Shown here: positions 1,261-20,076 of the stretch, piece after piece
Layout of the letters: every line of letters starts with the position of its first letter
Position numbering within the stretch: the stretch's first letter is position 1
NCBI RefSeq assembly: GCF_014203605.1
Contig: NZ_JACHJJ010000034.1
Span: 1-64,000, forward strand
Direction: 5' to 3'
DNA: 64,000 nt
Source: Thiemannella venezuelensis
Lineage (GTDB): Bacteria > Actinomycetota > Actinomycetes > Streptosporangiales > Streptosporangiaceae
Made by a program: the position numbers and the translations under genes
The notes under the pieces: model-generated
What the model was told of the DNA's origin: nothing
The model's input: the letters and a program-made list of their open reading frames with translations, nothing else
Database searches by the model: none

Positions 1261-2136
1261 ATGAATCTCAGCGGAGTGCTGTTCTTCCCCGTGACCCCGT
1301 TCGACGCCGAGGGCGCGCTGGCCGAGGACGTGCTCGCCGAGCACATCCGGCGCAACCTCGCGCACAACCCCGGCGGCGTCTTCGTGGCCTGCGGCACCGG
1401 GGAGTTCGCCGCGCTGTCGCAGGCCGAGCACGCCCGCGCCGTGGAGGTGGCGGTCAAGGAGGCCCAGGGCGCGGTGCCGGTGCTGGCCGGGGCCGGCGGC
1501 CCGCTCGGCGCCGCCCTGGAGCAGGCCCGCGCCGCCCGCGAGGCGGGCGCGGACGGCCTGCTGCTCATGCCGCCCTACCTGGCGCCGAGCTCCGGGCCCG
1601 GGTTCGCCGCGTACGTGCGCGCGATCGCCGCCGAGCTCCCCGTGATCGTCTACCAGCGCGGCCCGGTGGTGCTCGACCCCGCCGCGGTGGTGGAGCTGGC
1701 CCGCATCCCCGGCGTGTTCGGCCTGAAGGACGGCCTGGGCGACATCGACCGCATGCAGCGCACCGTGCTCGCGGTCCGCAGGGAGATCGGCCCGGACTTC
1801 ACCTTCTTCAACGGCCTGCCGACCGCCGAGCTGACCATGCCGGCCTACCGCGGCCTCGGCGTGGAGCTGTACTCCTCGGCGGTGTTCGCCTTCGCCCCCG
1901 AGATCGCCACCGCCTACTTCAACGGCGACGACCGGCTGCTGACGGAGTTCTACGCGCCCCTGGTCGAGCTGCGCAGCAAGGCCCCGGGCTACGCGGTCTC
2001 CCTGGTCAAGGCCGGGCTGCGGCTGCGCGGCCTGGACGTCGGCCCGGTCCGCGCCCCGCTGACCGACCTCACCCCGGAGCACCTGGCCGAGCTCGACGGG
2101 CTGCTCAAGCACGGCCTCGCCCTGGTGGGCGCATGA
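1261..2136 (+). CDS. kdgD: 5-dehydro-4-deoxyglucarate dehydratase (KdgD)
   Basis: This 291-residue protein belongs to the dihydrodipicolinate synthase/N-acetylneuraminate lyase family of TIM-barrel, Schiff-base enzymes. The Schiff-base lysine is K156 in VFGLKDGLGD and the catalytic tyrosine is Y131 in VIVYQRG. KdgD dehydrates and decarboxylates 5-keto-4-deoxyglucarate to 2,5-dioxovalerate in the oxidative uronate pathway. The N-terminus LSGVLFFPVTPFD and the aldehyde dehydrogenase of matching specificity downstream support KdgD over DapA. AAGGAG lies upstream of the ATG, and the stop overlaps the next start by four bases (ATGA). Confidence 0.85.
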   Translation: MNLSGVLFFPVTPFDAEGALAEDVLAEHIRRNLAHNPGGVFVACGTGEFAALSQAEHARAVEVAVKEAQGAVPVLAGAGGPLGAALEQARAAREAGADGLLLMPPYLAPSSGPGFAAYVRAIAAELPVIVYQRGPVVLDPAAVVELARIPGVFGLKDGLGDIDRMQRTVLAVRREIGPDFTFFNGLPTAELTMPAYRGLGVELYSSAVFAFAPEIATAYFNGDDRLLTEFYAPLVELRSKAPGYAVSLVKAGLRLRGLDVGPVRAPLTDLTPEHLAELDGLLKHGLALVGA

Positions 2137-3265: not shown

Positions 3266-4396
3266 GTGACCAGGGTTGTGCTCGCGGGCGCGTACGGCCA
3301 CGGCCGCTCGCATCTGGAGAACCTGCGCCGCCTGACCGCGCAGGGCCTGGTCGAGCTGGCCGGGGTCTGCGACGTGCGCCCCGTGGAGGCGGAGTGGCTG
3401 CACGGCCTGGGCTCTCCCGCGCAGGCGCACCCCGACGACCTGGCCGGGCTGGTCGAGCGCACCGGCGCGGAGATCACGATCCTGTGCACGCCCATCAACA
3501 CCCACGCCGACCTCGCGGTGACCGCGCTGCGCGCGGGCTCCCACCTGCTGCTGGAGAAGCCCCCCGCGGCCTCTCTGGCCGCCTTCGAGCGCATCGCCGC
3601 CGCCGTCGGGGAGACCGGCCTGGCCTGCCAGGTCGGCTTCCAGAGCCTCGGCTCCGCCGCGGTCCCCGCACTGCGCGAGCTGATCGCCTCCGGCGGGCTC
3701 GGCGAGGTGCGCGGCATCGGGGTGGCGGGGGCCTGGGAGCGGCCCGCCGAGTACTTCACCCGCTCGTCCTGGTCCGGCCGGCGGCGGCTGGACGGGCAGG
3801 ACGTGGTGGACGGCGCGCTCACCAACCCGTTCGCGCACGCCACGGCCACCGCGCTGGCGGTCGCCGGGGCCGAGGAGCTCGGCTCGGTCGCCTCGGTCGA
3901 GCTGGAGCTGTTCCACGCCAACCCGATCGAGGCCGACGACACCGCCGCGGCCCGGATCCGCCTGGCGGACGGCCGGGCGATCACGGTGGCCGTGACGCTG
4001 TGCGCGACGGGGCGGAGCGAGCCGTACCTGATCGTGCACGGCTCGGCGGGCACGGCCCGGCTGACCTACACCACCGACGACCTCGACGGGACCGTCCACC
4101 CCCGGGCGAACCTGCTGGAGAACCTCGTCGAGCACGTCAGGACCGGCGCGGAGCTGCTGGTCCCGCTGGCCCGCACCGGCGCGTTCATGGAGTTCATGGA
4201 GGCGGTACGGCTGGCGCCCGACCCGCTGCCGATCTCCGACGGGCACCAGACGCTCCACCCCGACCGGCGCGAGCTGCCCGGCATCCGGGAGCTGACGGAC
4301 CTCAGCGCCGAGCGGATGGCCCTGTTCTCGGAGCTGGGCACGCCGTGGGCGGCCGCCCCGGAGCCGGCCGCCGCCCCGGGAGCCGCACGTGGATGA
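3266..4396 (+). CDS. Gfo/Idh/MocA family oxidoreductase
   Basis: This predicted NAD(P)-dependent sugar oxidoreductase has about 376 residues. The N-terminal Rossmann segment VVLAGAYGHGR is followed by the family's ExP lysine motif at LLLEKPP (K98) and a C-terminal alpha/beta substrate domain. GTG 3266 is preferred because GGGGAG lies nine bases upstream and the Rossmann strand then starts the protein. In-frame ATGs at 3173, 3206 and 3245 would add a Thr/Gly-rich tail without homology signal. It overlaps the next gene by eight bases. The family acts on sugars, inositols or sugar acids; here a pectin-derived substrate is likely but unproven. Confidence 0.8.
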   Translation: MTRVVLAGAYGHGRSHLENLRRLTAQGLVELAGVCDVRPVEAEWLHGLGSPAQAHPDDLAGLVERTGAEITILCTPINTHADLAVTALRAGSHLLLEKPPAASLAAFERIAAAVGETGLACQVGFQSLGSAAVPALRELIASGGLGEVRGIGVAGAWERPAEYFTRSSWSGRRRLDGQDVVDGALTNPFAHATATALAVAGAEELGSVASVELELFHANPIEADDTAAARIRLADGRAITVAVTLCATGRSEPYLIVHGSAGTARLTYTTDDLDGTVHPRANLLENLVEHVRTGAELLVPLARTGAFMEFMEAVRLAPDPLPISDGHQTLHPDRRELPGIRELTDLSAERMALFSELGTPWAAAPEPAAAPGAARG

Positions 4397-5345
4397 GACG
4401 ACCACCGGACAAGCGCAGGGGAGCGAGACGGTCATGCGGGAGACGCACGCGGACGAGACGGCCGCACGGGAGCGGGCGGGCGGCACGGCCGTCCGCGAAC
4501 TGCGGGTCGCGGGCACGCCGGTGGCCTCCTACGTGTGGGAGCCCGACCTGCCGCCGGCCGACGCGCCGCGGCCGTACCTGCACCCGGTGCGCACGCTCGC
4601 GGGCACGGCGGTGACCGAGTACCGCCCCGACGACCACGTCCACCACCTGGGGGTCAGCCTGGCCGTCGCGGACGTCGGCGGGGTGAACTTCTGGGGTGGC
4701 CGGACCTTCGTCCGCGACCGGGGCGCCACCTGGCTGGACGATCACGGCCGCCAGCGGCACGACGCCTTCGACGAGCTTCCCGGCGGGTTCGGGGAGCTCC
4801 TGACCTGGATCGGTCCCGACGGCGCGACCGTCGCCCGCGAGGAGCGGACCGTGCTGGCCCGACCGGTGGCCGGGAAGACCCCGGCGGGTGCGTGGGCGCT
4901 GGACTTCTCCTTCGCGCTCACCGTGCGCGAGCCGCTGGAGATCAAGAGCTCGGCGTGCAAGGGACGGCCCGGGGCCGGGTACGGCGGGTTCTTCTGGCGC
5001 GCCCCCAAGGACGCGGCGGGCCTGGCCGTGTTCACCGGCGAGGGCGAGGGCGAGACCGCCGTGCACGGCAGCCGCACACCCTGGCTGGCGCTGGTCTCGG
5101 ACGCCTGGAGCCTGGTCTTCGTCCAGGCCGGGCCCGTGGACCCGTGGTTCGTGCGGGTCGCCGAGTATCCCGGGGTCGGCCCCGCGCTGGCCTGGGACCG
5201 GCCGCTGGCCGTCGCGGACACGCTGCGGCGGCGGGTGGTGACGGCCGTGGCGGACGGGCGGCTGGACAGGGCCGCCGCCGCGGAGCTGGCGGCAACGGCG
5301 GCGGACCTGCCGGACCCGGCCGGGACCGCGGAGACGGCGCCGTGA
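4389..5345 (+). CDS. PmoA-like (DUF6807) family protein
   Basis: This protein of about 318 residues matches the DUF6807/PmoA-related fold seen in carbohydrate catabolic operons, with features such as HPVRTL, DHVHHLGV, NFWGGRTF and a late WF-V-R motif (DPWFVRVAEYPG). No catalytic function is established for the family; it may act on or bind a sugar derivative in the cytoplasm. GTG 4389 overlaps the preceding stop. ATG 4434, with AGGGGAG upstream, is an equally good start and would drop an unconserved Thr/Glu/Arg-rich stretch. The four-base GTGA overlap with the next gene shows tight coupling within the operon. Confidence 0.65.
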   Translation: MDETTTGQAQGSETVMRETHADETAARERAGGTAVRELRVAGTPVASYVWEPDLPPADAPRPYLHPVRTLAGTAVTEYRPDDHVHHLGVSLAVADVGGVNFWGGRTFVRDRGATWLDDHGRQRHDAFDELPGGFGELLTWIGPDGATVAREERTVLARPVAGKTPAGAWALDFSFALTVREPLEIKSSACKGRPGAGYGGFFWRAPKDAAGLAVFTGEGEGETAVHGSRTPWLALVSDAWSLVFVQAGPVDPWFVRVAEYPGVGPALAWDRPLAVADTLRRRVVTAVADGRLDRAAAAELAATAADLPDPAGTAETAP

Positions 5346-7507
5346 AGGTCTTCGTCGCGGGCGACTCCACCGCCGCCACCTACCCGGTCACGCTCGCGCC
5401 GCAGGCGGGCTGGGGACAGGCGCTCCCGCTGTTCTGGGACGTGCCCGTGGTCAACGAGGCCATCCCCGGCGCCAGCGCGCGCAGCTCGATCGAGCGCCTG
5501 GGGATGTACGAGCGGATCATGGCCGCCATCGGGCCGGGCGACCTCCTGCTGATCTGCTTCGGCCACAACGATCCCAAGCACGACCAGGGCCGCTTCTCCG
5601 CGCCGTTCACCGGCTACCGGGACTTCCTGCGCCGCTACATCGACGGGGCCCGCGAGCGGGGCGCGCGCCCCGTGCTGGTCACCTCCGTGGAGCGGCGCAC
5701 CTGCGGCCCGGAGGGGACGCACGGCTCCTACCCCGAGGCGATGCGGGCCCTGGCCGCCGCCGAAGAGGTGCCGCTGGTCGACCTGCAGGCCGCCAGCCTC
5801 CGGCGCTGGCGGGAGCTCGGCCCGGAGACGACCAAGGAGCTGTTCCTCTGGCTCGCCCCGCACCCCAACTACCCGGACGGCAGCGCCGACGACACCCACT
5901 TCACCGGGCGCGGCGCGATCGAGGCGGCCCGGCTGCTGCTGGAGGCGGCGGGCGACCTGCTCCCGCCCGCCGTCCGTACCCCCCAAGCCGACCTCATGGA
6001 TTGGAGACCTGTCATGTCCGTGTGGAGCATCGACGCCCGCTCGGGTGAGCGGCGCCGCGAGTTCGCCTCCACCAGTGCCGAGGAGCTCGGCCTGGCCTGC
6101 CGCCGCGCCCACGAGCTGCTGTCCCGGCTGGACGAGGCCGGACCGCAGGGGCGGGCCGCGCTGCTTTCGGCCATGGCCGACGCCCTGGACGAGCGGGTGG
6201 ACGCCCTGGTCGCCGCCGCCGACGCCGAGACCGCGCTCGGCCTGCCCCGGCTGACCGGGGAGGTCGCCCGGACCAGCGGCCAGCTGCGCCTGTTCGCCGA
6301 GGTGCTGCGCGAGGGCTCCTTCCTCGACGTCCGGCTCGACGGCGCCGACGGGGTCAAGCCGGACCTGCGCCGGATGAACATCCCGGTCGGCGTGGTCGGC
6401 GTCTTCTCCGCCAGCAACTTCCCCTTCGCCTTCAGCGTCGGCGGCGGCGACACCGCCAGCGCGCTGGCCGCGGGCTGCCCGGTCGTCGTCAAGGCGCACT
6501 CCCTGCACCCGGAGACCTCCGAGCTGACCCTGGCCGCCCTCCAGGAAGGCGCCCGCGCGGCGGGTTTCCCCGCCGAGGTCGTCCAGCTCGTCCACGGCCG
6601 TGAAGCGGGGGTCGCGCTGGTCAACAATCCCCTGGTCAAGGCGGTCGGGTTCACCGGGTCGATCGGCGGCGGGCGCTTCCTGTACGACGTGGCCAAGGCC
6701 CGTCCCGAGCCGATCCCGTTCTACGGCGAGCTGGGCAGCCTCAATCCGTTCGTCATCACGCCCGGCGCGGTGGAACGCCGCACCGAGGAGATCGCGGCCG
6801 GACTCGTGGCCTCGGCGACGCTGGGCGCGGGGCAGTTCTGCGTCAAGCCCGGCCTCGTCCTGGCCCCGGAGGGCAGCGGGCTGGTCGAGGCGATGGCGGG
6901 GCACCTCACCGAGCTGGGCCCGCAGGTGCTGCTCGGTGACAGCATCAGGGAGAGCTTCGAGTCGGGCGCGAGCGAGCGGGAGGCCGTCCCGGGCCTGCGC
7001 GTGGCGGCCACCGGGCAGGTGGGCGACAACGAGCGGCAGGTGACGGCGCGGCTGATGACCGGGCCCATCTCCCTCCTGGACAGCACCGAGCTGCTGATGG
7101 AGGAGTGCTTCGGGCCGATGACCGTGGTGCTCACCTACGACAGCGAGGACCAGCTGACCGAGGCGCTGGCCGCCGCCCCCGGCAACCTGACCGCGACCCT
7201 GCACAGTGAGCCCGAGGAGGAGAAGCTGGCCTCCCGGATCACGGCGGTGATGCGGGACCGGGCGGGCCGGCTGGTCTTCGACGCCTACCCGACCGGGGTC
7301 GCGGTCGGCTGGGCGCAGCAGCACGGGGGGCCGTACCCGGCGACCACCGAACCGTCGACCACCTCGGTCGGCAGCGCGGCGATCTTCCGGTTCCTGCGGC
7401 CGGTCGTCTACCAGAACTGCCCGGCGCACCTGCTGCCCGAGGCGCTGCGGGACGGCAACCCGTGGCGGCTCCCCCGCCGCCTGGACGGAGTGCTCACGCA
7501 GCCCTGA
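5342..7507 (+). CDS. Bifunctional fusion: SGNH rhamnogalacturonan acetylesterase-like domain + 2,5-dioxovalerate (alpha-ketoglutaric semialdehyde) dehydrogenase
   Basis: One open frame of 721 residues with no stop between two complete domains. Residues 1-210 form an SGNH hydrolase: GDST with nucleophile S9, FGHND, and DDTH with H186, as in rhamnogalacturonan acetylesterases. From residue 225 an entire aldehyde dehydrogenase follows (about 497 residues counted from its internal ATG at 6014). It has E239 in FYGELGSLNPF and C276 in GQFCVKPG, in internal numbering; this cysteine context is typical of KGSA dehydrogenases that make 2-oxoglutarate. An RBS-like GGAG precedes ATG 6014, so a separate dehydrogenase could also be made. 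No signal peptide is visible. Whether the fusion is real or a lost stop is open. Confidence 0.75.
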   Translation: MKVFVAGDSTAATYPVTLAPQAGWGQALPLFWDVPVVNEAIPGASARSSIERLGMYERIMAAIGPGDLLLICFGHNDPKHDQGRFSAPFTGYRDFLRRYIDGARERGARPVLVTSVERRTCGPEGTHGSYPEAMRALAAAEEVPLVDLQAASLRRWRELGPETTKELFLWLAPHPNYPDGSADDTHFTGRGAIEAARLLLEAAGDLLPPAVRTPQADLMDWRPVMSVWSIDARSGERRREFASTSAEELGLACRRAHELLSRLDEAGPQGRAALLSAMADALDERVDALVAAADAETALGLPRLTGEVARTSGQLRLFAEVLREGSFLDVRLDGADGVKPDLRRMNIPVGVVGVFSASNFPFAFSVGGGDTASALAAGCPVVVKAHSLHPETSELTLAALQEGARAAGFPAEVVQLVHGREAGVALVNNPLVKAVGFTGSIGGGRFLYDVAKARPEPIPFYGELGSLNPFVITPGAVERRTEEIAAGLVASATLGAGQFCVKPGLVLAPEGSGLVEAMAGHLTELGPQVLLGDSIRESFESGASEREAVPGLRVAATGQVGDNERQVTARLMTGPISLLDSTELLMEECFGPMTVVLTYDSEDQLTEALAAAPGNLTATLHSEPEEEKLASRITAVMRDRAGRLVFDAYPTGVAVGWAQQHGGPYPATTEPSTTSVGSAAIFRFLRPVVYQNCPAHLLPEALRDGNPWRLPRRLDGVLTQP
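6003..6016 (+). promoter_or_regulatory. Internal ribosome binding site and ATG of the dehydrogenase part
   Basis: GGAG at 6003-6006 lies seven bases before ATG 6014, exactly where free-standing dehydrogenases of this family begin. It could give a second, shorter product from the fused frame. Confidence 0.5.
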
Positions 7508-7626
7508 CGGCGCGCCGGGGCGACCCGCCCCGGCGGTGCTCCGAGGGCGCGCCGGCGTCCCGCCCGCCCCTGCCCGACCAGACCCTCTCCCCTGGAGGCT
7601 CCGGCTCCGCACCCCGATCCGACCCT

Positions 7627-7775: not shown

Positions 7776-7795
7776 GCTCCTCCTCAAGGTTGCAC

Positions 7796-10075
7796 ATGCG
7801 ACTTCTGACACTCCCCTCGGTGATCGTTCTGACGATCACCGCAGCGGCCGCACCGGCCGCCTCCGCCACCGGGTCCTCCACCGCCGGCCCCTCCGCCACC
7901 ATCGTGGTCGCGGCCGACGGCTCCGGCGACCACCGGACCGTGCAGGACGCCGTCAACGCCGTCCCGGCCGGCAACACCAGGCCGGTCACCATCCTGGTCC
8001 GCGAGGGCACCTACAGGCAGCAGGTGCTCATCCCCGCCGACAAGCCGCACATCTCGCTGGTCGGCGCCACCGGCGACCCGAGCAAGGTCGTGCTCACCTT
8101 CGACGCCGCCGCCTCCACCCCTAAGCCCGACGGCTCCGGGACCTACGGCACCTCGGGCAGCGCCTCCTACGTGATCAGCGCGCCCGACTTCACCGCCCGC
8201 AACCTCACCTTCGAGAACTCCTACGACGAGGCCGCCAAGGGCAGCAGCCAGGCCGTGGCGGTGCGGACCACCGGCGACCGGCAGGTCTACGAGAACGTCC
8301 GGTTCATCGGCAACCAGGACACCCTCTACGCCAACACCGCCACCGCCGGCACCGTGGCCCGGCAGTACTTCCGCAACTGCTACGTCGAGGGCGACGTCGA
8401 CTTCATCTTCGGCCGGGCCACCGCGCTGTTCCACAACTGCGTGATCAAGTCCCTCAACCGGGGTGCCGCCGACGGCAACAACGGCTACGTCACCGCGGCC
8501 AGCACGGAGATCTCCAACCCCTACGGCTTCATGATCTACCGCAGCCACCTGGTCAGCGACGCCCCCGCCAAGACCGTCCACCTGGGCCGCCCGTGGCCGG
8601 CCGGCGGCTCGGCCACCGCCCGGGGGCAGGTCCTGATCCGCGAGTCCTGGCTCGGCCAGCAGTTCAAGGACGCGCCCTGGACCGACATGTCCGGCCTGAA
8701 CTGGCGGGACGCCCGGCTCTCGGAGTACCTCAACCGCGGCCCGGGCGCGGCGGTCAACAACGACCGGCCGCAGCTGACCAGGGAGCAGGCCGAGCGGTTC
8801 GACCCCGAGGACTACCTCAGGGGCACCGACGGCTGGGACCCCTTCCGCAGCTTCCCCTCCCGCTCCGACCAGCAGCTCGGCCGCCAGGTGCTCCCGAAGA
8901 ACGACGGCTGGGCCGCGGCGGGCACCGGCACCACCGGCGGCTCGGCCGCCCGCCCCGAGAACATCTACACGGTCTCCACCAGGGCGCAGCTGCTCGCCGC
9001 GATCGGCAACCCCGCCGACAACACCCCGAAGATCATTTACGTGAAGGGCGCGATCGACGCCGACACCGACGACGCGGGCAACCCGCTCACCTGCGCGAGC
9101 TACGCGACGGGCGGCTACAGCCTCCAGGCCTACCTCGCCGCCTACGACCCGGCGGTCTGGGGCCGGGACAAGGTCCCCTCGGGCCCGCTGGAGGACGCGC
9201 GCAAGGCGTCCTACGAGAAGATGGCGCAGCACGTCACCATCACCCTCGGCTCCAACGTCACCCTCGTCGGCCTGGGCCGCGACGCCGCGCTGAAGAGCTT
9301 CGGCATCCGGATCACGAACGCCGACAACGTCATCGTCCGCAACCTCACCATCACCGACACCTCCGACTGCTTCCCGCAGTGGGACCCGACCGACGGCGAC
9401 GGGGGCGCCTGGAACGCCTCCTTCGACAACGTCGAGGTCTCCACCTCCACCCACGTGTGGCTGGACCACAACACCCTCAACGACGGCGACAACCCCGACT
9501 CGGGCCAGCCGCTGTACTTCGGCAGGCCGTACCAGGTCCACGACGGGCTGCTCGACGTGGTCCGCGGCTCCAACCACGTGACGCTGTCGTGGAACCACCT
9601 GAGCGGCCACGACAAGGTGATGCTGATCGGCAACACCGACAACCCGACCAGGTACGCCGAGGCCGACAAGCTCAAGGTGACGCTGCACCACAACCACTTC
9701 GAGGGCCTGGGCCAGCGGACCCCGCGGGTGCGCTTCGGCCAGGTGCACGTCTACAACAACTACTACACCGGCTCGGACATCTACCTCTACAGCATCGGCG
9801 TGGGCTTCGGCTCGCAGGTCTACGCGCAGGCCAACGCCTTCGACGGCATCCCCGCCGAGAAGGTGCTCTCGGTCCTGAAGGGCACCGCGATCACCGCCAG
9901 GGACAACCTGGTCGACGGCAGGCCCGCCGACCTGGTCGCCGCCCACAACGCCGCGCACGACCCCGACCTCGGCACCGACGCGGGCTGGACGCCCGCCCTG
10001 GTCACCCGGGTCGACCCCGCCCGCGCGCTGCGCGGCATCGTCCCCGCACGGGCGGGCGCCGGACGCATCGGCTGA
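7796..10075 (+). CDS. Secreted pectinesterase (CE8) - pectate lyase (PL1) fusion
   Basis: This 759-residue exported bifunctional pectinase starts with a signal peptide (MRLLTLPSVIVLTITAAAAP, cleavage near ASA). A CE8 pectin methylesterase beta-helix follows, with NQDTLY (D175), DVDFIFG (D202) and LGRPW. After a short linker near residues 375-385 comes a PL1 pectate lyase with VWLDHNT and RTPRVRFG (residues 641-648). The first domain de-esterifies pectin and the second cleaves the resulting polygalacturonate, feeding uronates to the adjacent operon. ATG 7796 is chosen because it begins the signal peptide; an in-frame TTG lies six bases earlier. Two LacI-type operators upstream suggest control by the regulator at the window start. 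Confidence 0.9.
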   Translation: MRLLTLPSVIVLTITAAAAPAASATGSSTAGPSATIVVAADGSGDHRTVQDAVNAVPAGNTRPVTILVREGTYRQQVLIPADKPHISLVGATGDPSKVVLTFDAAASTPKPDGSGTYGTSGSASYVISAPDFTARNLTFENSYDEAAKGSSQAVAVRTTGDRQVYENVRFIGNQDTLYANTATAGTVARQYFRNCYVEGDVDFIFGRATALFHNCVIKSLNRGAADGNNGYVTAASTEISNPYGFMIYRSHLVSDAPAKTVHLGRPWPAGGSATARGQVLIRESWLGQQFKDAPWTDMSGLNWRDARLSEYLNRGPGAAVNNDRPQLTREQAERFDPEDYLRGTDGWDPFRSFPSRSDQQLGRQVLPKNDGWAAAGTGTTGGSAARPENIYTVSTRAQLLAAIGNPADNTPKIIYVKGAIDADTDDAGNPLTCASYATGGYSLQAYLAAYDPAVWGRDKVPSGPLEDARKASYEKMAQHVTITLGSNVTLVGLGRDAALKSFGIRITNADNVIVRNLTITDTSDCFPQWDPTDGDGGAWNASFDNVEVSTSTHVWLDHNTLNDGDNPDSGQPLYFGRPYQVHDGLLDVVRGSNHVTLSWNHLSGHDKVMLIGNTDNPTRYAEADKLKVTLHHNHFEGLGQRTPRVRFGQVHVYNNYYTGSDIYLYSIGVGFGSQVYAQANAFDGIPAEKVLSVLKGTAITARDNLVDGRPADLVAAHNAAHDPDLGTDAGWTPALVTRVDPARALRGIVPARAGAGRIG

Positions 10076-12346: not shown

Positions 12347-13624
12347 TCAGTCGGTCAGCGGGCCGAACTCCTTGCGGGTGTCGATCACGTCGCCGAAGAG
12401 CTCCCACCGCTCGCCCTTGAACTCCATGAGCTGCATGGACTCGATGGGGAATCCGTCGTCCGCACCGGTGGTCATGGTCACCCCGGGCAGCAGCATGCCG
12501 ACCTGGACGCCGCCGAGCGCGCGCACGGAGTCCCGCAGCCCCTCGCGCGTCGGGCACTTCGCCGCCTCCATCGCCTTGTGGAAGCTGCTGGCCACCGCCC
12601 ACCCGAAGGTGTGGTACGGAACGGTCGGGTCGGCCTCGGGGACGTACTGCTTCATCTTCTCGTAGTAGAGCACCATCTCCGGGTCGTTCTTCCACTGCGG
12701 GTCGTTGGGGTCCTTGTAGTACGTGGCGGACACGATGCCCTGCACGTTCTCGAAGCCGACCGGCCGCAGCACGGTGATCGAGGCGGCGACGTTGTTGACG
12801 ATGTGCAGCGGGTTCCATCCCGTGTTCTTGGCGTCGGCCGCCAGCGCCTGGGAGCCGAACCTCGGCGTCGTGATGTTGAGGAACACGTCGGCCCCGGACT
12901 CGGCGAGGTTGCGCATCTGGGGGTCGACGCTCGGGTCGGAGACCTCGTAGCTCTGCTCGGCGACCACCGTGACCCCGCTGCCGTCGATGGCGCGCTTGAA
13001 CCCGCCGAACAGGTCCTTGCCGAAGTCGTCGTTCTGGTACAGCACCGCCACCTTGGCCTCGGGGCGCTCCTGCTTGAGGTACTGCGCGTAGACGCGGGCC
13101 TCGGAGACGTAGTTCGGCTGCCAGCCGATGGTCCACGGATGCGCGGTGTCGGTGCCCCACTTCGACGCACCGGTCGCGACGAAGACCTGGGGAACCTTGC
13201 GCTGGTTGGCGTAGTCCCAGGTCGCCGTGGTCGAGGGCGTGCCCAGTGTCTGGAAGAGGGCGAACACCTGCTCCTGCTCGACGAGCCTGCGGGCCTCCTC
13301 GACGGCCTTGGGCGGCTGGTAGCCGTCGTCGCGCACCACGAACTCGACCTTGCGCCCGCCGATCCCGTTCTTCTCGGCGTTGACGTAGTCGAAGTAGGCC
13401 TTGATGCCCTTGGGGATGTCGCCGTACGCGGAGGCCGGCCCCGACAGCGGGTAGATGCCGCCGAGCTTGATGCTCGTGTCGGTGATGCCGGTGGTCTGCT
13501 GGCCCTGGCACTGGCCCGCGGCCGTCGTCGCGCCCCCTCCGGTCTCCTCCCGCCCTCCGCAGGCCGCCGTGGCGAGCAGCAGGACCGCCGTCACCGCCGT
13601 ACAGCCGATGGCAGATCGCCGCAT
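12347..13624 (-). CDS. Branched-chain amino-acid/amide-type ABC transporter substrate-binding lipoprotein
   Basis: This 425-residue extracellular binding protein has a lipoprotein signal (basic start, hydrophobic run, lipobox LLATAAC with Cys near residue 22), then a two-lobed Peripla_BP_6 (LivJ-like) fold: IKLGGIYPLSGPASAYGDIP, IGGRKVEFVVRDDGYQPPKA, and later TIGWQPNYVSEA. It is the first of the transporter genes in map order but the last to be transcribed, four bases after the permease stop. Ligands of this family include branched-chain amino acids, amides, urea and aromatic acids. The adjacent acyl-CoA ligase suggests a carboxylic acid, but this is inference. Confidence 0.85.
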   Translation of the reverse strand: MRRSAIGCTAVTAVLLLATAACGGREETGGGATTAAGQCQGQQTTGITDTSIKLGGIYPLSGPASAYGDIPKGIKAYFDYVNAEKNGIGGRKVEFVVRDDGYQPPKAVEEARRLVEQEQVFALFQTLGTPSTTATWDYANQRKVPQVFVATGASKWGTDTAHPWTIGWQPNYVSEARVYAQYLKQERPEAKVAVLYQNDDFGKDLFGGFKRAIDGSGVTVVAEQSYEVSDPSVDPQMRNLAESGADVFLNITTPRFGSQALAADAKNTGWNPLHIVNNVAASITVLRPVGFENVQGIVSATYYKDPNDPQWKNDPEMVLYYEKMKQYVPEADPTVPYHTFGWAVASSFHKAMEAAKCPTREGLRDSVRALGGVQVGMLLPGVTMTTGADDGFPIESMQLMEFKGERWELFGDVIDTRKEFGPLTD

Positions 13625-13627
13625 TTC

Positions 13628-14662
13628 TTACTCCTTCCGGAGAATCTTCTTGGTCGAGCGCGCCACGCGGCCCGCCAGGCCGGCGAGACCGGTCGGAGCG
13701 ACGTACATCACCGTGATGATCAGCAGGCCGAAGATGACGCCGGGTGCGGCGTCGTTGACGTCCTGGGAGATGCCGGGCACGAACATCACGAACAGCCCGC
13801 CCAGCAGCGGTCCCGAGAACGAGCCCAGGCCGCCGACGACGATGCCCGCCAGCAGCGTGATCGAGAGGGTGACCGCGAACGAGTCCGGCGAGACGAATCC
13901 GATGACCCAGGTGTAGACGGAGCCCGCCGCCCCCGCGAACATCGCGCTCCAGGCGAAGGCGAGCGTCTTGTAGAACGACAGCCGCACGCCCATGACCTCG
14001 GCCGCCGCCTCGTTGTCCCGGACGGCGTGCAGCGCCCGGCCGACCCGCGAGTGCAGCAGGCCGCGGGCCAGCAGGAAGGCCGCGACGGCCACGGCCAGCG
14101 CCAGGAAGTACAGCCACTGGTCCTCGGCCAGTCCCGTCCAGGCCGGCGGCGCCGGTTTGCCGAGCGTCAGTCCCATGGAGCCGCCGGTCACCGACTCGAA
14201 GCGTTTGAGCAGCGGCACCAGGAAGATCGCGATGGCCAGTGTCACGAGGGCCAGGTAGAGCCCGCGCAGGCGCATGGCGGGCAGGCCGAGCGCCAGGCCG
14301 AGCGCGAACGCCGTCGCGGCGGCGGCCGGCAGGGTCAGCACGTGCGGCACGTCCCACCGGTCGAGCATGATCGCGGTCCCGTAGGCGCCGACGGCGAAGA
14401 AGGCGCCGTGGCCGAGAGAGATCTGACCGGCGTGGCCGACGAGCAGGTTCAGGCCGAGCAGCGCCACCGCGTAGACCAGCACCATGGTGAACTGGAAGAC
14501 GCGGAACGGCACGAGCTGGAACGGCAGGGAGCAGGCCACCGCGAGCAGCGCCGCCGCCACGATCCACCGCCGGCGCCCGGCGGCGATGCGCGCCAGGGCC
14601 CGTCCCCGGCCGGGCGCGTCGGCCCGCACGGGCTTCTCGGTCACCTCCGCCCGCCCGCTCAT
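13628..14662 (-). CDS. Branched-chain-type ABC transporter permease (LivM family)
   Basis: This 344-residue inner membrane permease has a short basic N-terminal tail, then about ten hydrophobic segments. The family motif NLLVGHAGQISLGHGAFFAV lies in the first third and GLGSFSGPLLGGLFVMFVPG near the end. It pairs with the LivH-type permease encoded just upstream, whose stop overlaps this start by four bases. ATG 14662 is chosen for that overlap; the frame open further upstream is a shadow of livH. Function as the second channel subunit is certain at family level. Confidence 0.85.
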   Translation of the reverse strand: MSGRAEVTEKPVRADAPGRGRALARIAAGRRRWIVAAALLAVACSLPFQLVPFRVFQFTMVLVYAVALLGLNLLVGHAGQISLGHGAFFAVGAYGTAIMLDRWDVPHVLTLPAAAATAFALGLALGLPAMRLRGLYLALVTLAIAIFLVPLLKRFESVTGGSMGLTLGKPAPPAWTGLAEDQWLYFLALAVAVAAFLLARGLLHSRVGRALHAVRDNEAAAEVMGVRLSFYKTLAFAWSAMFAGAAGSVYTWVIGFVSPDSFAVTLSITLLAGIVVGGLGSFSGPLLGGLFVMFVPGISQDVNDAAPGVIFGLLIITVMYVAPTGLAGLAGRVARSTKKILRKE

Positions 14663-15540
14663 GCCCGCTCCACCGCCGCCCGGCCGAACAGTCCCTGGGG
14701 CCGCAGCAGCAGGATGCAGAGGATTATGATCAACGGCACGCCCACCTTGAGGTCGGATCCGATGACGTCGACGTACGCGCCGGCGAGCGTCTCGGCGACG
14801 CCGACGACCAGGCCGCCCACCACCGCTCCCCCGGGGCTGTCGAACCCGCCGAGGGTCGCCGCGGCGAAGGCGTAGATCAGGACACCGCCCATCATGTTGG
14901 GCTCCAGGAAGAGCAGCGGCGCCACCAGGACCCCCGACACCGCGCCGACGGTGGCGGCGAGTCCCCAGCCGAGCGCCAGCGTCCAGCCGACCCTGATGCC
15001 GACGAGCCGGGCCGAGGTGGGGTTGGCCGCCACCGCTCGCATCCCCAGGCCGACCTTGGTGCGCTGGAAGAGCAGGTACAGCAGGCCCATGACCACGGCG
15101 ACCACCGCCATCACGCCCAGCGTCGAGTACCCCACGCTGAGCCCGCCGGCCTCGAGCGCGCCGCCGGGGAACGGGTTGGGGAAGTCCTTGATGAGGAACG
15201 ACCAGATCCATCCGGCGGCGGCGTTGACGAAGATGAACAGCCCCACGGTGACGATCACCACGGTCAGCTCGGGGGCGCCTTCCACCGGGCGGATGACGAC
15301 CCGCTCGATCAGCATGCCGCCCGCGAAGGACACCGCCAGCGTGAGCACCAGAGCCGGCCAGAACGGCAGGCCCGCCGCGGTGAACTGCCAGGCGATGTAG
15401 GCGGAGAACATCGCCAGCTCGCCCTGGGCGAAGTTGACGATCCCGGTGAACTGGTAGATCAGCACCAGTGCCAGGGCCAGGCTGGCGTAGATCGCGCCCG
15501 CGCCGAGCCCCTCGACGACCTGCTGCAGGAAGCCCACCAT
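14659..15540 (-). CDS. Branched-chain-type ABC transporter permease (LivH family)
   Basis: This 293-residue permease starts with MVGFLQQVVEGLGAGAIYAS and has the conserved YQFTGIVNFAQGELAMFSAY and FDSPGGAVVGGLVVGVAETL stretches, with about eight membrane helices. It forms the heterodimeric channel with the LivM-type protein, driven by the two ATPases transcribed ahead of it. It is two bases downstream of the LivF gene, within one operon of five genes running leftward. Confidence 0.85.
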   Translation of the reverse strand: MVGFLQQVVEGLGAGAIYASLALALVLIYQFTGIVNFAQGELAMFSAYIAWQFTAAGLPFWPALVLTLAVSFAGGMLIERVVIRPVEGAPELTVVIVTVGLFIFVNAAAGWIWSFLIKDFPNPFPGGALEAGGLSVGYSTLGVMAVVAVVMGLLYLLFQRTKVGLGMRAVAANPTSARLVGIRVGWTLALGWGLAATVGAVSGVLVAPLLFLEPNMMGGVLIYAFAAATLGGFDSPGGAVVGGLVVGVAETLAGAYVDVIGSDLKVGVPLIIILCILLLRPQGLFGRAAVERA

Positions 15541-15542
15541 GG

Positions 15543-16268
15543 CTAGACCCGGTATCCGAGGTAGGACCGGGCGACCTGCTCGTCGGCCCGGATGCGTTCC
15601 GCCGATCCCGACAGGACGATCCGGCCGCTCTCCAGGACGTGCGCCTGCTGGGCCACGCCAAGGGCGAGATGGGCGTTCTGCTCGACGACGACCACGGTGG
15701 TCCGCTCCTCTTCGTTGACCGCCCGCACGATGCGGAACAGTTCCTCGGTGACCAGCGGGGCCAGGCCCAGGGACGGCTCGTCCAGCAGGAGCAGCCGCGG
15801 CCGCAGCATGAGGGCCCGGCCGATCGCCAGCATCTGCTGCTCGCCGCCGCTGAGGCTGCCGGCCACCTGCTTCAGCCGCGTCCGCAGCACCGGGAAGTAG
15901 GCGCAGACGCGGTCCAGGTCGGCTCCGACCGCACCGCGCCCCCGCCGTACGAAGGCGCCCAGGCGCAGGTTCTCCTCGACCGTCAGCGGCATGAACGTGC
16001 CGCGTCCCTCGGGCACGTGCGCGACGCCCTGCCGGGCGAGCGCGTCCGGTGAGCGCCGGGCCAGGCCGGTCCCGTCGAGCCGGACGTCGCCGCGTACCCG
16101 GATCATGCCCGACAGCGCCCGCAGCAGGGTCGTCTTGCCCGCTCCGTTGGGCCCGAGGATGGCGCAGATCTCCCCGCGGCCCACGGTGAGGTCCACGCCG
16201 TGCAGCACCCGGGCGTCCCCGTAGCCGGCGTGCAGGCCCTCGACGGCCAGGAAGGCGTCGCCGCTCAT
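15543..16268 (-). CDS. Branched-chain-type ABC transporter ATP-binding protein (LivF family)
   Basis: This 241-residue ATPase has Walker A GPNGAGKT (residues 39-46), signature LSGGEQQ and Walker B LLLLDEPSLGLAP. Start ATG 16268 overlaps the stop of the preceding LivG gene by four bases. It works with LivG as the nucleotide-binding pair of the importer. Assignment to LivF rests on gene order, length and the EPSLGL sequence. Confidence 0.85.
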   Translation of the reverse strand: MSGDAFLAVEGLHAGYGDARVLHGVDLTVGRGEICAILGPNGAGKTTLLRALSGMIRVRGDVRLDGTGLARRSPDALARQGVAHVPEGRGTFMPLTVEENLRLGAFVRRGRGAVGADLDRVCAYFPVLRTRLKQVAGSLSGGEQQMLAIGRALMLRPRLLLLDEPSLGLAPLVTEELFRIVRAVNEEERTTVVVVEQNAHLALGVAQQAHVLESGRIVLSGSAERIRADEQVARSYLGYRV

Positions 16269-17023
16269 CCGGTCGTCCCCAGGTAGGCCCGCATGACCTC
16301 GGGGTCGCGCTGGACCTCGGCGGGCGGCCCTTCGGCGATCTTCCGGCCGAAGTTCAGGCAGACGACCCGGTCGCAGGTCCCCATGACGAAGCCCATGTGG
16401 TGCTCGACCACCACCATCGTCACGTCGAACTCCTCGCGGATCGCGCGCAGGGTGCCGGCGAACTCCCCGACCTCCGCGGAGTTGAGCCCGTTGACGGGTT
16501 CGTCGAGCAGCAGCAGCTCGGGGCGGCCGACCAGCGCCCGGGCCAGTTCCACCCGCTTGAGCGTGCCGAACGGCAGGCCCGTCGCCGGATGGTCGGCGAC
16601 CCGGGTCAGCGCCAGCCGGTCCAGCACCCCGTCCGCCTCGGCGCGGAGCCGGGCCTCCTCCCGGCGGACCCGCGGAAGCCGCAGCGACGCGGTGAGGAAC
16701 CCGGCCCCGCCGCGGTGGTGCGCGCCGACCAGCACGTTGTCGCGGACCGACATGTGCGGGAACAGGCCGAGGTTCTGGAACGTGCGCGCGATGCCCGCGG
16801 CCGCGATCGCGTGCGGCGGTACGGCCAGCAGGTCCTTCCCCTCGTACCGCACGGTTCCCGCATCGGCGTCGTACCGCCGCGTCAGGCAGTTGAACAGCGT
16901 GGTCTTGCCGGCGCCGTTCGGTCCGATGAGCCCGGTCATCTCACCGCGCCGCACGGAGAAGCCCACGCCGTCCAGGGCCGTGATGCCCCCGAAGCGGACG
17001 GTGAGACCGTGTACCTCCAGCAT
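16265..17023 (-). CDS. Branched-chain-type ABC transporter ATP-binding protein (LivG family)
   Basis: This 252-residue ATPase has Walker A GPNGAGKT (34-41), the LivG-typical FGTLKRVELARAL signature region, and LLLDEPVNGLN. ATG 17023 is chosen because a strong AGGAGG lies seven bases upstream and the protein then begins MLEVHGLTVRFGG like its family; the longer open frame is not needed. It is the first gene of the five-gene transporter operon, divergent from a PucR-type regulator, with an inverted repeat between them. Confidence 0.85.
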   Translation of the reverse strand: MLEVHGLTVRFGGITALDGVGFSVRRGEMTGLIGPNGAGKTTLFNCLTRRYDADAGTVRYEGKDLLAVPPHAIAAAGIARTFQNLGLFPHMSVRDNVLVGAHHRGGAGFLTASLRLPRVRREEARLRAEADGVLDRLALTRVADHPATGLPFGTLKRVELARALVGRPELLLLDEPVNGLNSAEVGEFAGTLRAIREEFDVTMVVVEHHMGFVMGTCDRVVCLNFGRKIAEGPPAEVQRDPEVMRAYLGTTG

Positions 17024-17047
17024 CCGGCCTCCTGTCGGGCCCAGGGA

Positions 17048-17060
17048 AGAACAATGTTCT
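17048..17060. promoter_or_regulatory. Inverted repeat AGAACAATGTTCT in the divergent promoter region
   Basis: Perfect six-base arms with a single central A lie 25 bases from the LivG start and 154 bases from the PucR-type start. This is a good candidate operator for the divergent regulator or another dimeric repressor. Confidence 0.5.
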
Positions 17061-17213
17061 GAAGTCGTGGTCAGCGTAGGTTCCGCCCGCCGGAGGCCGC
17101 ATTGGGCACGGCCGCCCAAGATGCGGCGGAGCTGTTGTCCGCCGCGCACAGCATGCGTCTCGGACCTGTCACAAGTCGTTGACCGTCTGCCCGAGGCCAG
17201 GGATCATCCCGAC

Positions 17214-18611
17214 ATGTCCGGTGGCTTCAGCACGGAAACGCTCACCCCCGCGGAAGCGGTCAGCGCCGAACGCGCGCGCATCCTCGCCGAGATCCTCGAC
17301 GACCTGGACGAGCTTGCCGGAGCCGCGGTCCGGGCGATGCGCGCCGAGATCCCGGCCTACGCCGCCCAGGACGAGGCGTTCCACGCCGACGTGCGGGACC
17401 AGGTCGCCCGGCACTACCGCAGCAAGCTGGCCGTGCTGCTCGAAGACCGCACGGTGATGCCCGACGACATCGCCTTCACCCGCCGGGCGGCGATGCGGAG
17501 GGCGCGGGCCGGGGTCGCCCTGGCCGACTACATCAACGCCTTCCGCGTCGGCCAGCAGGTTTTCTGGGAGTCGGTCATCGAACGCGCCGGGCGCTCGTCC
17601 GCCGGCCACGACGCCGCGCTCTCGCTGGCGGCCCCGCTGATGCGGTACTGCGACCTCGCCAGCACGCACGCGGCCAACGCGTACATGGAGTTCCAGCAGT
17701 ACGCCGCCGCCGAGGCGGTGCGGGAGAGCCGGGACCTGCTGGAGACCTTCCTCGCCGGGGGCGCGCCCACCCGCGGCCGCCAGCTCGCCGTGGCCCAGGC
17801 GCACGGCCTCGCGCCCGACGCCGCCGCCCCGCTGCTCGTCGTGATCGCGGTCCTGCTGCCGCACGCTCCCGGGTCCTGCGGGCAGGCCGTACCGGCCGGC
17901 CCGGACCGCGGCGCCGACGCGCGGCACGCGGCGTGCGCGGCGATCGCGCGGACCTGGGGGAACGGGATGAGGACGTTGTCGGTCGTACGGCACTCGGAGA
18001 TCGTGGCCGTCCCGGTGCTCGGCCCGGGAACCGGCCCACAGGAGTTGTGCGACCGGCTCCAGGCGGTGCGGGAGAACCTGCTCGGGGAGGAGATCGTCCT
18101 GGCCATGGGCGTCAGCACCGTGATCACCGGGACTTCCCGGATCCCGCAGGCCTACCAGGAGGCCCGCGCCGTCCTGGAGTTCCTCCCCGAGGAGGGGGGC
18201 ATGGCGGCGCTCCCCAGGATCACGCCCTTCCAGTACCTGGCGCTGAGAGCCGACGACACCGCCCGGCACCTGGTCGATCCGCGGATCACCTCGCTCCTGG
18301 CCGAGGACCGGGCGCGCGGCGGCGTGCTCACCGCCACGATCCGGGCCTTCGCCGCCGCCGACCTGAACCTGCGCGCCGCGGCGGAGCACCTGCAGATCCA
18401 TCCCAACACCGCCCAGTACCGCCTGCGGCGGATCCGCGCGCGCACCGGGCGCAACCTGCGCCGGATCAGCGATCTCGTCGACCTGCTCGTCGCGATCGCG
18501 CTCCACGACTCGCTGCCGCCGGGCACCGATTCCCGGCGGGAAAGACTGGCGGCCACGACCGATGATCGCCGCACGGGCCGGACGTACGGTCGTTTCCATG
18601 AACCTCGCTGA
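17214..18611 (+). CDS. PucR/CdaR-family transcriptional regulator
   Basis: This 465-residue activator-type regulator has an N-terminal sensory helical region (residues 1-170, with HYRSKLAVLLEDRTV and NAFRVGQQVFWESV), a central GGDEF-like degenerate domain (about 190-340) and a C-terminal PucR helix-turn-helix beginning near residue 384 (LNLRAAAEHLQIHPNTAQYR). Such proteins sense small metabolites and control catabolic genes. ATG 17214 follows a GAGG tract. The gene diverges from the ABC transporter operon and overlaps the acyl-CoA ligase gene by 14 bases, so it probably controls both. The inducer is unknown. Confidence 0.8.
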   Translation: MSGGFSTETLTPAEAVSAERARILAEILDDLDELAGAAVRAMRAEIPAYAAQDEAFHADVRDQVARHYRSKLAVLLEDRTVMPDDIAFTRRAAMRRARAGVALADYINAFRVGQQVFWESVIERAGRSSAGHDAALSLAAPLMRYCDLASTHAANAYMEFQQYAAAEAVRESRDLLETFLAGGAPTRGRQLAVAQAHGLAPDAAAPLLVVIAVLLPHAPGSCGQAVPAGPDRGADARHAACAAIARTWGNGMRTLSVVRHSEIVAVPVLGPGTGPQELCDRLQAVRENLLGEEIVLAMGVSTVITGTSRIPQAYQEARAVLEFLPEEGGMAALPRITPFQYLALRADDTARHLVDPRITSLLAEDRARGGVLTATIRAFAAADLNLRAAAEHLQIHPNTAQYRLRRIRARTGRNLRRISDLVDLLVAIALHDSLPPGTDSRRERLAATTDDRRTGRTYGRFHEPR

Positions 18612-20076
18612 CCGGCTCCGGCTCGCCGCCGAGCGACTCGCCGGGAGGACGGCCGTCACGCTCGACGGGGCGCAGCTCACCTACGGCGCGATGGAGCTGA
18701 TGAGCGCGCGCGTCGCGGCGCTGCTGCGGCGGCGCGGTATCGGCGCCGGCGACCGGGTGGCGGTCATGCTGCCGAACGTCCCGGAGTTCGCGGTCGTCTA
18801 CTACGGGGTGCTGCGGACCGGAGCCGTGGTCGTCCCGCTCGACCCGCTGCTGCGGAAACGGGAGATCGCCGCCTACGTCGGCGACTGCGGGGCCCGGCTG
18901 CTGATCGCCTGGCACGCCTTCGCCGAGACCGCCGAGGCCGGGACCGCGGGCACCGGCGCCGACTGCTTCTTCGTGGTGCCCGGGGAGTTCCCCCGCCTGC
19001 TGGGCGGTATGGCGGCCGAACGCGAGATCGTCCCGAGGTCCGCCGGCGACACCGCGGTCATCCACTACACCTCGGGAACGACCGGCCGGGCCAAGGGCAT
19101 CGAGCTCACCCACGCCAACCTGGGGAGCAACGCCGCGACGGTCTCCCGCATGCACGCGCTCGGGGTGGACGACGTCGTCCTCGGCGCGCTGCCGCTCTAC
19201 CACTCCTTCGGCCAGACCTGCTCGCTCAACGCGGCCGTCCACGCCGGCGCGCGCCTCACGCTGCTGCCGCGTTTCGAGGCGGGCCGCGCCCTGGAGGTGA
19301 TCCGGCGCGACGGGGTCACGGTCTTCCAGGGGGTGCCCACGATGTACATCGCGCTGCTCGACCACCCCGGAGCCTCCGACATGTCGCTGCTGCGCGTCTG
19401 CGTCTCCGGCGGCGCCGCCATGCCGCTCGACGTGCTGCGGGCCTACGAGACCCGGTTCGGCTGCCCGATCGTGGAGGGGTACGGCCTCAGCGAGACCTCC
19501 CCGGTGGCCGCGACCAACCGCGCCGGCCCCGGCCGCAGGCCCGGGTCCATCGGCTGGCCCGTCAAGGACGTCGAGATGAAGGTGGTCGGCGAGGACGGCC
19601 GCGAGCTGCCGCACGGCCAGGTCGGCGAGATCATCGTCCGGGGCCCGAACGTGATGAAGGGGTACTGGAACGACCCCGCCGCGACCGCGGAGGTCATCCG
19701 CGACGGCTGGTTCCACACCGGCGACCTCGGCAGGGTCGACGGCGACGGGTTCTTCTTCCTCGTCGACCGCCGCCGCGATGTGATCATCCGGGGCGGGTAC
19801 ACCGTCTACCCCCGCGAGGTGGAGGAGGTCCTGTACGAGCACCCCGCCGTACGGCAGGCGGTGGTCGTCGGGATCCCCCACCCGGAGCTGGGCGAGGAGG
19901 TCGCGGCCGTGGTGACGCTGCGCGCGCCGGTCGGCCCCGACGAACTGCGCGACTTCGCCAAGGAGCGGATGGCCGCCTACAAGTACCCCCGCCGGGTCTC
20001 GTTCACCGACGAACTGCCCATGACCCCCACCGGAAAGGTCCTCAAACGCACCCTCGGGCTGTCGCTGAACGAGTAG
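18598..20076 (+). CDS. AMP-forming long-chain/aryl acyl-CoA ligase
   Basis: This 492-residue ANL-superfamily enzyme activates a carboxylic acid to its CoA thioester via an acyl-adenylate. Visible motifs are the P-loop TSGTTGRAKG (158-167), YGLSETSP, GWFHTGDLG, DRRRDVIIRGGYTVYPREVE and the catalytic lysine in PTGKVLKR at the C-terminus. ATG 18598 lies inside the end of the regulator gene, so translation is coupled. Sequence resembles fatty acyl or aryl ligases; together with the adjacent importer it suggests uptake and activation of an organic acid. Confidence 0.85.
   Translation: MNLADRLRLAAERLAGRTAVTLDGAQLTYGAMELMSARVAALLRRRGIGAGDRVAVMLPNVPEFAVVYYGVLRTGAVVVPLDPLLRKREIAAYVGDCGARLLIAWHAFAETAEAGTAGTGADCFFVVPGEFPRLLGGMAAEREIVPRSAGDTAVIHYTSGTTGRAKGIELTHANLGSNAATVSRMHALGVDDVVLGALPLYHSFGQTCSLNAAVHAGARLTLLPRFEAGRALEVIRRDGVTVFQGVPTMYIALLDHPGASDMSLLRVCVSGGAAMPLDVLRAYETRFGCPIVEGYGLSETSPVAATNRAGPGRRPGSIGWPVKDVEMKVVGEDGRELPHGQVGEIIVRGPNVMKGYWNDPAATAEVIRDGWFHTGDLGRVDGDGFFFLVDRRRDVIIRGGYTVYPREVEEVLYEHPAVRQAVVVGIPHPELGEEVAAVVTLRAPVGPDELRDFAKERMAAYKYPRRVSFTDELPMTPTGKVLKRTLGLSLNE

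Follow-up and report, generated by a model that had tools for sequence, protein, structure and literature searches.

Enzymes of the aldehyde dehydrogenase (ALDH) superfamily can form part of larger proteins: the long forms of PutA are bifunctional proline enzymes with an inactive ALDH-superfamily domain, i.e., fused catabolic enzymes whose ALDH-type domain can serve assembly over catalysis. A single reading frame can also carry two starts, as in the dual-start genes cheA, clpB and infB, each of which yields a long product and an N-terminally shorter one. Mammalian ALDH16A1 is described as an ALDH pseudoenzyme that lacks the catalytic residues and is thought to act via protein interactions (PMC10650815). 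Here we describe a gene of the actinomycete Thiemannella venezuelensis, located in a stretch of 64,000 nucleotides (contig NZ_JACHJJ010000034.1, positions 1 to 64,000; hereafter, the window), in which an SGNH/GDSL esterase and an aldehyde dehydrogenase are joined in one open frame that probably contains a second, internal start. Each of these precedents differs from the locus in some respect. The partner enzyme and the pathway of PutA are unrelated to the esterase fusion; ALDH16A1 has no esterase partner, and three Actinomadura versions of the fusion with altered dehydrogenase halves retain the catalytic Glu; and, unlike in cheA, clpB and infB, the short form here would be an entire pathway enzyme, which relatives encode as a separate gene. 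By sequence and predicted fold, the best solved relatives of the dehydrogenase half are the fatty aldehyde dehydrogenase of Vibrio harveyi (1EYY) and a Sinorhizobium semialdehyde dehydrogenase (3V4C), both of them stand-alone enzymes (chains of 510 and 528 residues) without an esterase domain. The esterase half, which has the SGNH residues, belongs by profile to the same SGNH family as the rhamnogalacturonan acetylesterases (Aspergillus 1DEO) and Bacillus YxiM (2O14), but unlike it these are not fused to a dehydrogenase. A literature search of a limited collection found no paper on this esterase-dehydrogenase architecture.

The gene occupies positions 5342–7507 of the forward strand of the window, as a single open frame of 721 codons that runs from a GTG at 5342 to a stop at 7505–7507. 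The mechanically derived open reading frame (ORF) is longer, being open from a GTG at 4535 (990 residues in the ORF list). GTG 5342 appears to be the start, because homology and conservation begin there, because a GGAG lies 8 nt upstream, and because the upstream frame is short in Actinomadura montaniterrae, where only nine codons are open ahead of the match. This GTG overlaps the stop of a DUF6807 gene (4389–5345) as GTGA. Pfam searches placed GDSL at residues 3–197 and Aldedh at residues 233–627, and the layout is an esterase at about residues 1–206 (5342–5959; PF13472/PF00657), a short linker at residues 207–224 (5960–6013) and an aldehyde dehydrogenase at residues 225–721 (6014–7507; PF00171, E = 4.3e-42). 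As the original prediction had stated, both domains have complete sets of catalytic residues. Esterase residues S9, G43, N76, D183 and H186, which we take to fill the roles of the SGNH blocks, were invariant in the 10 fused proteins aligned, and N359, E463, C500 and H661 of the dehydrogenase aligned with N147, E253, C289 and H450 of 1EYY, presumably its catalytic residues. A structure predicted for the whole fusion had a predicted local distance difference test score (pLDDT) of 76.8 and a predicted template modelling score of 0.60, with residues 652–687 below 50, values too low for judging the domain interface.

An open frame by itself is weak evidence for a fusion, because long spurious frames are common at such a G+C content: the minus strand holds a 956-residue antisense frame (4742–7612) that spans the whole fusion gene and is most likely a by-product of high G+C. 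What makes the fusion credible is that 14 genomes conserve the fused frame, with identities as low as 66–69%, and on that evidence we regard it as confirmed to be real and conserved, with no stop between the domains, as originally predicted. A search of 345 genomes of the order, at E ≤ 1e-160, gave 26 matches, 13 of them fused and 13 to a dehydrogenase alone. Together with Planomonospora parontospora, these make 14 distinct fused loci, including that of the window. One genome counted as fused (G203) matched over residues 1–523 in a search of 297 genomes of the family, and was seen in a further comparison to read on to the end of the dehydrogenase; in that family search, among the matches listed, nine genomes matched over approximately the full length without a stop. 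The genus search covered two genomes, of which one was that of the window, and the other carries the fusion with 86% identity. A class-wide draw of 394 genomes yielded six matches at 1e-150, every one from the same family.

Similar results were obtained when relatives were sought through the esterase. Among 14 esterase loci in a named collection, 12 were fused, i.e., those of Planobispora longispora, Planobispora siamensis, Planobispora takensis, Planomonospora sp. ID67723, Planomonospora sp. ID82291, P. parontospora, A. montaniterrae, Actinomadura sp. BRA 177, A. latina, Actinomadura sp. OS1-43, A. bangladeshensis and A. violacea. The other two, from Nonomuraea soli and Paenibacillus sedimenti, are more distant and consist of the esterase alone; among these 14 loci, no close relative had a stop at the junction. 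An esterase profile matched 38 of the 297 family genomes at E ≤ 1e-30; the 10 close ones (at least 436 bits) were all open fusions, and the remaining matches scored 242 bits or less. Between the Actinomadura and Planobispora groups, the linker differs in length by an in-frame gap of two residues. For both domains, each of the 14 pairs tested gave a ratio of nonsynonymous to synonymous substitution rates (omega) of less than 0.15, and the values for the esterase (0.023–0.146) indicate purifying selection. Because it is under purifying selection, the esterase is presumably made and, since no stop ends it, its translation must yield the fusion, barring cleavage or frameshifting.

In a tree of the dehydrogenases, fused and unfused forms were interleaved, with at least four changes between the two states. 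In a tree of the esterases, the fused rows lay on one side of a single branch (85/73; 86% of bootstrap trees, with a long-branch warning), and N. soli came next. The history that fits best, although it is not proven, is that the genes fused once and the esterase was then lost repeatedly. In five close relatives whose dehydrogenase is unfused (G132, G122, G084, G017 and G119), the operon contains no such esterase, and none of these genomes is among the 38 with an esterase match. In G132 (locus L087), whose dehydrogenase is 91% identical, the esterase has been deleted, so that the DUF6807 frame now runs into the tail end of the esterase gene. This extended frame terminates as TGATG on the dehydrogenase ATG, and the internal start becomes an ordinary start. 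The N. soli esterase (L052, 4001–4744) has no dehydrogenase match in its locus, and its C-terminal VEWRTEG resembles the linker of the fusion.

The most surprising part is an apparently non-catalytic form of the dehydrogenase half, seen in three Actinomadura species (A. latina, A. bangladeshensis and sp. BRA 177). All three have lost C500 and H661 to deletions, and N359 to either a deletion or a replacement, whereas each retains E463; sp. BRA 177 has an additional deletion of 126 nt. All 12 internal gap runs in the altered halves are multiples of three, and, while a total length divisible by three is built in by the choice of open frames, the single gap runs are not so constrained. The three form one clade in the dehydrogenase tree (100/99) and have two deletion starts in common, so the catalytic loss was probably ancestral to them. 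Pairwise omega values for this half among the three were 0.089–0.133 (likelihood ratio against 1, 122.6–159.0), compared with 0.037–0.058 in four pairs of intact Actinomadura. Because the gap runs stay in frame and omega remains at 0.09–0.13 despite the loss of Cys, Asn and His, these results suggest that the altered half has a non-catalytic role. A model of the A. latina protein preserved the ALDH fold, with a mean pLDDT of 80.1 and 1EYY as its best Foldseek match, although the alignment used included intact relatives, which favours that fold. When a preserved oligomer surface was sought through segment-wise omega values in the altered halves, there was no clear pattern: all five dehydrogenase segments were relaxed by 1.8- to 3.8-fold, each remaining below 0.15. 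The esterase was tighter in the segment-wise comparison (0.032 versus 0.083). As for translational coupling as the reason for the kept frame, inspection by eye of the 90 bases that follow the stop in each of six Actinomadura showed no abutting next gene.

A serious alternative, although one that we find doubtful, is that the altered half is decaying, i.e., that it has merely not yet been hit by a stop or frameshift, and that those halves that had been hit would have been missed. The operon of the window also encodes a dehydratase resembling KdgD, and six of the seven Actinomadura have no KdgD gene in the operon, though the first and later genes remain. The three species with altered halves are among these six; one of them, A. 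latina (G246), had no KdgD match at E ≤ 1e-30. The other five have only copies of 44–48% identity on other contigs, and the seventh Actinomadura (G228) keeps an operon copy (73%). Since three of the six still have intact dehydrogenase halves, the operon copy of KdgD was probably the first to be lost. Decay would also fit an omega about twice that of the intact pairs, and a frameshifted half would have scored under the 1e-160 cut of the order search; moreover, the N. soli esterase has no dehydrogenase half at all. The last two points, in particular, weigh against a scaffold role. On the other side, the shared clade and deletion starts imply that the three probably diverged after the loss, and yet omega stayed low, while the search with the esterase alone returned only open fusions among close genomes.

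The final codons of the linker are GAT TGG AGA CCT GTC ATG, in which a Shine-Dalgarno (SD) sequence, GGAG (6003–6006), extends from the Trp codon into a rare Arg codon, AGA (6005–6007), and sits 7 nt before an in-frame ATG (6014–6016, codon 225). An internal ribosome-binding site and ATG had been predicted at 6003–6016, and these coordinates were right. Because GGAG precedes the dehydrogenase start in all 13 unfused relatives shown, the linker would seem to include a translated ribosome-binding site, its terminal WRPV being encoded by the stretch that contains it. To regard the linker purely as a translated ribosome-binding site was set aside, since stand-alone esterases of one genus (g47) have similar ends (LTWPDERPV and alike); the linker may have descended from an esterase tail too.

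We consider it probable that the gene is a dual-start gene, from which both the fusion and a free dehydrogenase are made. The full internal signal (GGAG plus ATG or GTG) is present in 9 of the 14 fused genomes. When all 14 fused rows were taken without selection, AGA or AGG made up 10 of the 13 Arg codons at the junction. No other of the 51 columns with at least 10 Arg had as high a share (the next had 5 of 13), the background being 55 AGA/AGG in 839 Arg cells. The junction codon is the sole AGA among the 57 Arg codons of the window gene; the same holds for the genes of the three Planobispora and of ID67723, the five genes having 57–61 Arg codons each. Also in favour of a dual start, the two Planomonospora whose start codon has been replaced carry CGG at the junction instead of AGA.

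Several results nevertheless weigh against an internal start, and some of them would be expected if only the 721-residue protein were made and the internal SD were a leftover of an ancestral leader, an explanation that we regard as unlikely. Five of the 14 fused genomes lack the full signal: G228 and A. latina keep the ATG with no GGAG; A. bangladeshensis has CTG at the position of the start; and ID82291 and P. parontospora have GAT and GAG there, with CGG replacing AGA, and yet their dehydrogenase catalytic motifs are intact. The two Planomonospora do have other in-frame starts with an SD-like sequence (ATG 198 and GTG 259). Within Actinomadura the junction codon is not unusual, being AGA or AGG in 5 of 6 rows, with two columns higher (6/6 and 6/7) and one equal, and in the Planobispora/Planomonospora set it leads narrowly (5/7, next column 4/7). 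Earlier counts on signal-bearing rows (1 of 37, 1 of 53 and 1 of 52 columns) were partly circular, because selecting rows with GGAG forces AGA or AGG at this codon. Ranked by SD duplex energy, the junction start was second of the 31 in-frame ATG/GTG codons in the window, which is not decisive; elsewhere it ranked 2–4 in seven genomes and first in three, and was absent in three. Set against a plain fusion is the leading AGA/AGG share of the SD codon over the 14 unselected rows, which holds despite clear synonymous divergence. On balance, the codon and SD data give good, but not decisive, support to the internal start. The original prediction had offered a fusion and a dual-start gene as two options; the comparisons support the survival of both, and the two can coexist, the second resting on the signal kept in nine genomes and on the top column of 51, and being weakened by the ordinary codon usage of the Actinomadura junction.

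It is highly improbable that the halves are two separate proteins, with the fusion being cleaved, or a frameshift ending the esterase near the linker, so that the open frame would have no meaning. The free dehydrogenase is the commoner state, and a model confidence below 50 at linker residues 220–223 of the predicted window fusion is compatible with an exposed linker; however, three Actinomadura conserve the frame and residues of a Cys-less dehydrogenase half, which is hard to explain if the halves are separate, although no search aimed at slippery or protease sites was made. An assembly or sequencing frameshift in the run of six C at 5979–5984 can be rejected with near certainty, since the Planobispora genomes have the same frame and the same length across this run, fused frames occur elsewhere, and no support for such an error was found.

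The preferred reading, i.e., the dual-start gene, draws on features seen in the sequence (a conserved fused frame, selection on both domains, and an internal SD and start in 9 of 14 genomes). Translation from GTG 5342 would give the 721-residue esterase-dehydrogenase fusion, and translation from ATG 6014, using a ribosome-binding site within the linker codons, would give an additional, free dehydrogenase of 497 residues (6014–7507); the two products may co-assemble in one oligomer. Rather more tentatively, we propose that loss of one stop codon created a mixed-oligomer device, in which the fusion would dock esterase units on a dehydrogenase oligomer and the internal start would determine how many subunits carry an esterase relative to those that are free. 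In the three Actinomadura with catalytic losses, the dehydrogenase domain would most likely have been retained as a scaffold that supports the assembly or stability of the esterase; under the same proposal, this pseudo-ALDH would be a pure scaffold, maintained by the dependence of the esterase on it. Counting against such dependence, neither half strictly needs the other, because the N. soli esterase occurs alone and several relatives have the dehydrogenase alone.

Less certain than the fusion itself are the names originally given to the two halves. The dehydrogenase scored far below the cut-offs of the NCBIfam models for 2,5-dioxovalerate dehydrogenase (NF052305, 76.5 versus 750; NF042993, 73.7 versus 770). 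In searches of solved structures, the esterase profile matched 2O14 (E = 9.3e-18) and 1DEO (E = 9.2e-12, over profile positions 2–84 only), both of which we assume to be CE12 enzymes. From the similarity to rhamnogalacturonan acetylesterases and the adjoining pectin gene, its substrate would be acetyl groups of pectin or rhamnogalacturonan. The protein opens straight with the first strand and GDST and no signal peptide was seen; the esterase might remove acetyl groups from imported pectin fragments. For some distant esterase relatives in one genus (g4), the surrounding open frame measures about 500 or 1436–1517 residues, and these may be other multidomain versions.

The gene order in the Planobispora and Planomonospora loci is SDR dehydrogenase, KdgD, mandelate-racemase-like protein, Gfo/Idh oxidoreductase, DUF6807, esterase, dehydrogenase and pectinesterase/pectate lyase. 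In the unfused relatives G132, G122, G017 and G119, the genes as far as the dehydrogenase follow the same order, minus the esterase, and G084 is like them except that its KdgD copy is elsewhere in the locus. In the window, the KdgD-like 5-dehydro-4-deoxyglucarate dehydratase (1261–2136, forward strand) scored above the cut-off of NF002958 (370 versus 278) and below that of TIGR03249 (290 versus 373.95), and 4UR7 (E = 3.4e-53) was its only solved relative at E ≤ 1e-30; the assignment is fairly well supported. From established knowledge, the operon can be read as a pathway from galacturonate to 2-oxoglutarate, in which the KdgD product would be the aldehyde substrate of the dehydrogenase, i.e., a semialdehyde that the latter would oxidise. 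The first gene was considered as a uronate dehydrogenase, which proved weak, with no solved match at 1e-20 and 3RFT (E = 1.9e-8) ranking 12th of 29. The third resembles acid-sugar dehydratases and cycloisomerases.

The DUF6807 gene directly upstream (forward strand; ORF list and Pfam) has counterparts in the loci read from Planobispora, Planomonospora, Actinomadura and N. soli, where they immediately precede the esterase or dehydrogenase. Downstream of the fusion, on the same strand, lies a gene for a protein with pectinesterase and pectate lyase domains (7790–10075; PF01095 and PF00544), in the same order as in the Planobispora and Planomonospora loci. It is a second fusion of the cluster, with near-full-length matches in the Planobispora, Planomonospora and N. 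soli loci. Further along the window (12347–20076) are genes for a periplasmic binding protein and a branched-chain-type permease on the minus strand, followed by a PucR-type regulator and an AMP-binding enzyme on the plus strand.

For annotation, these results mean that the window protein is probably bifunctional. Around this one fusion there is a natural series: unfused genes, a fusion with an internal start, fusions in which the start has been lost, fusions whose partner is without catalytic residues, and genes that are unfused again after deletion of the esterase. With such a series, one could examine the steps by which a ribosome-binding site is turned into a protein linker, and the point at which a fused enzyme becomes a scaffold.

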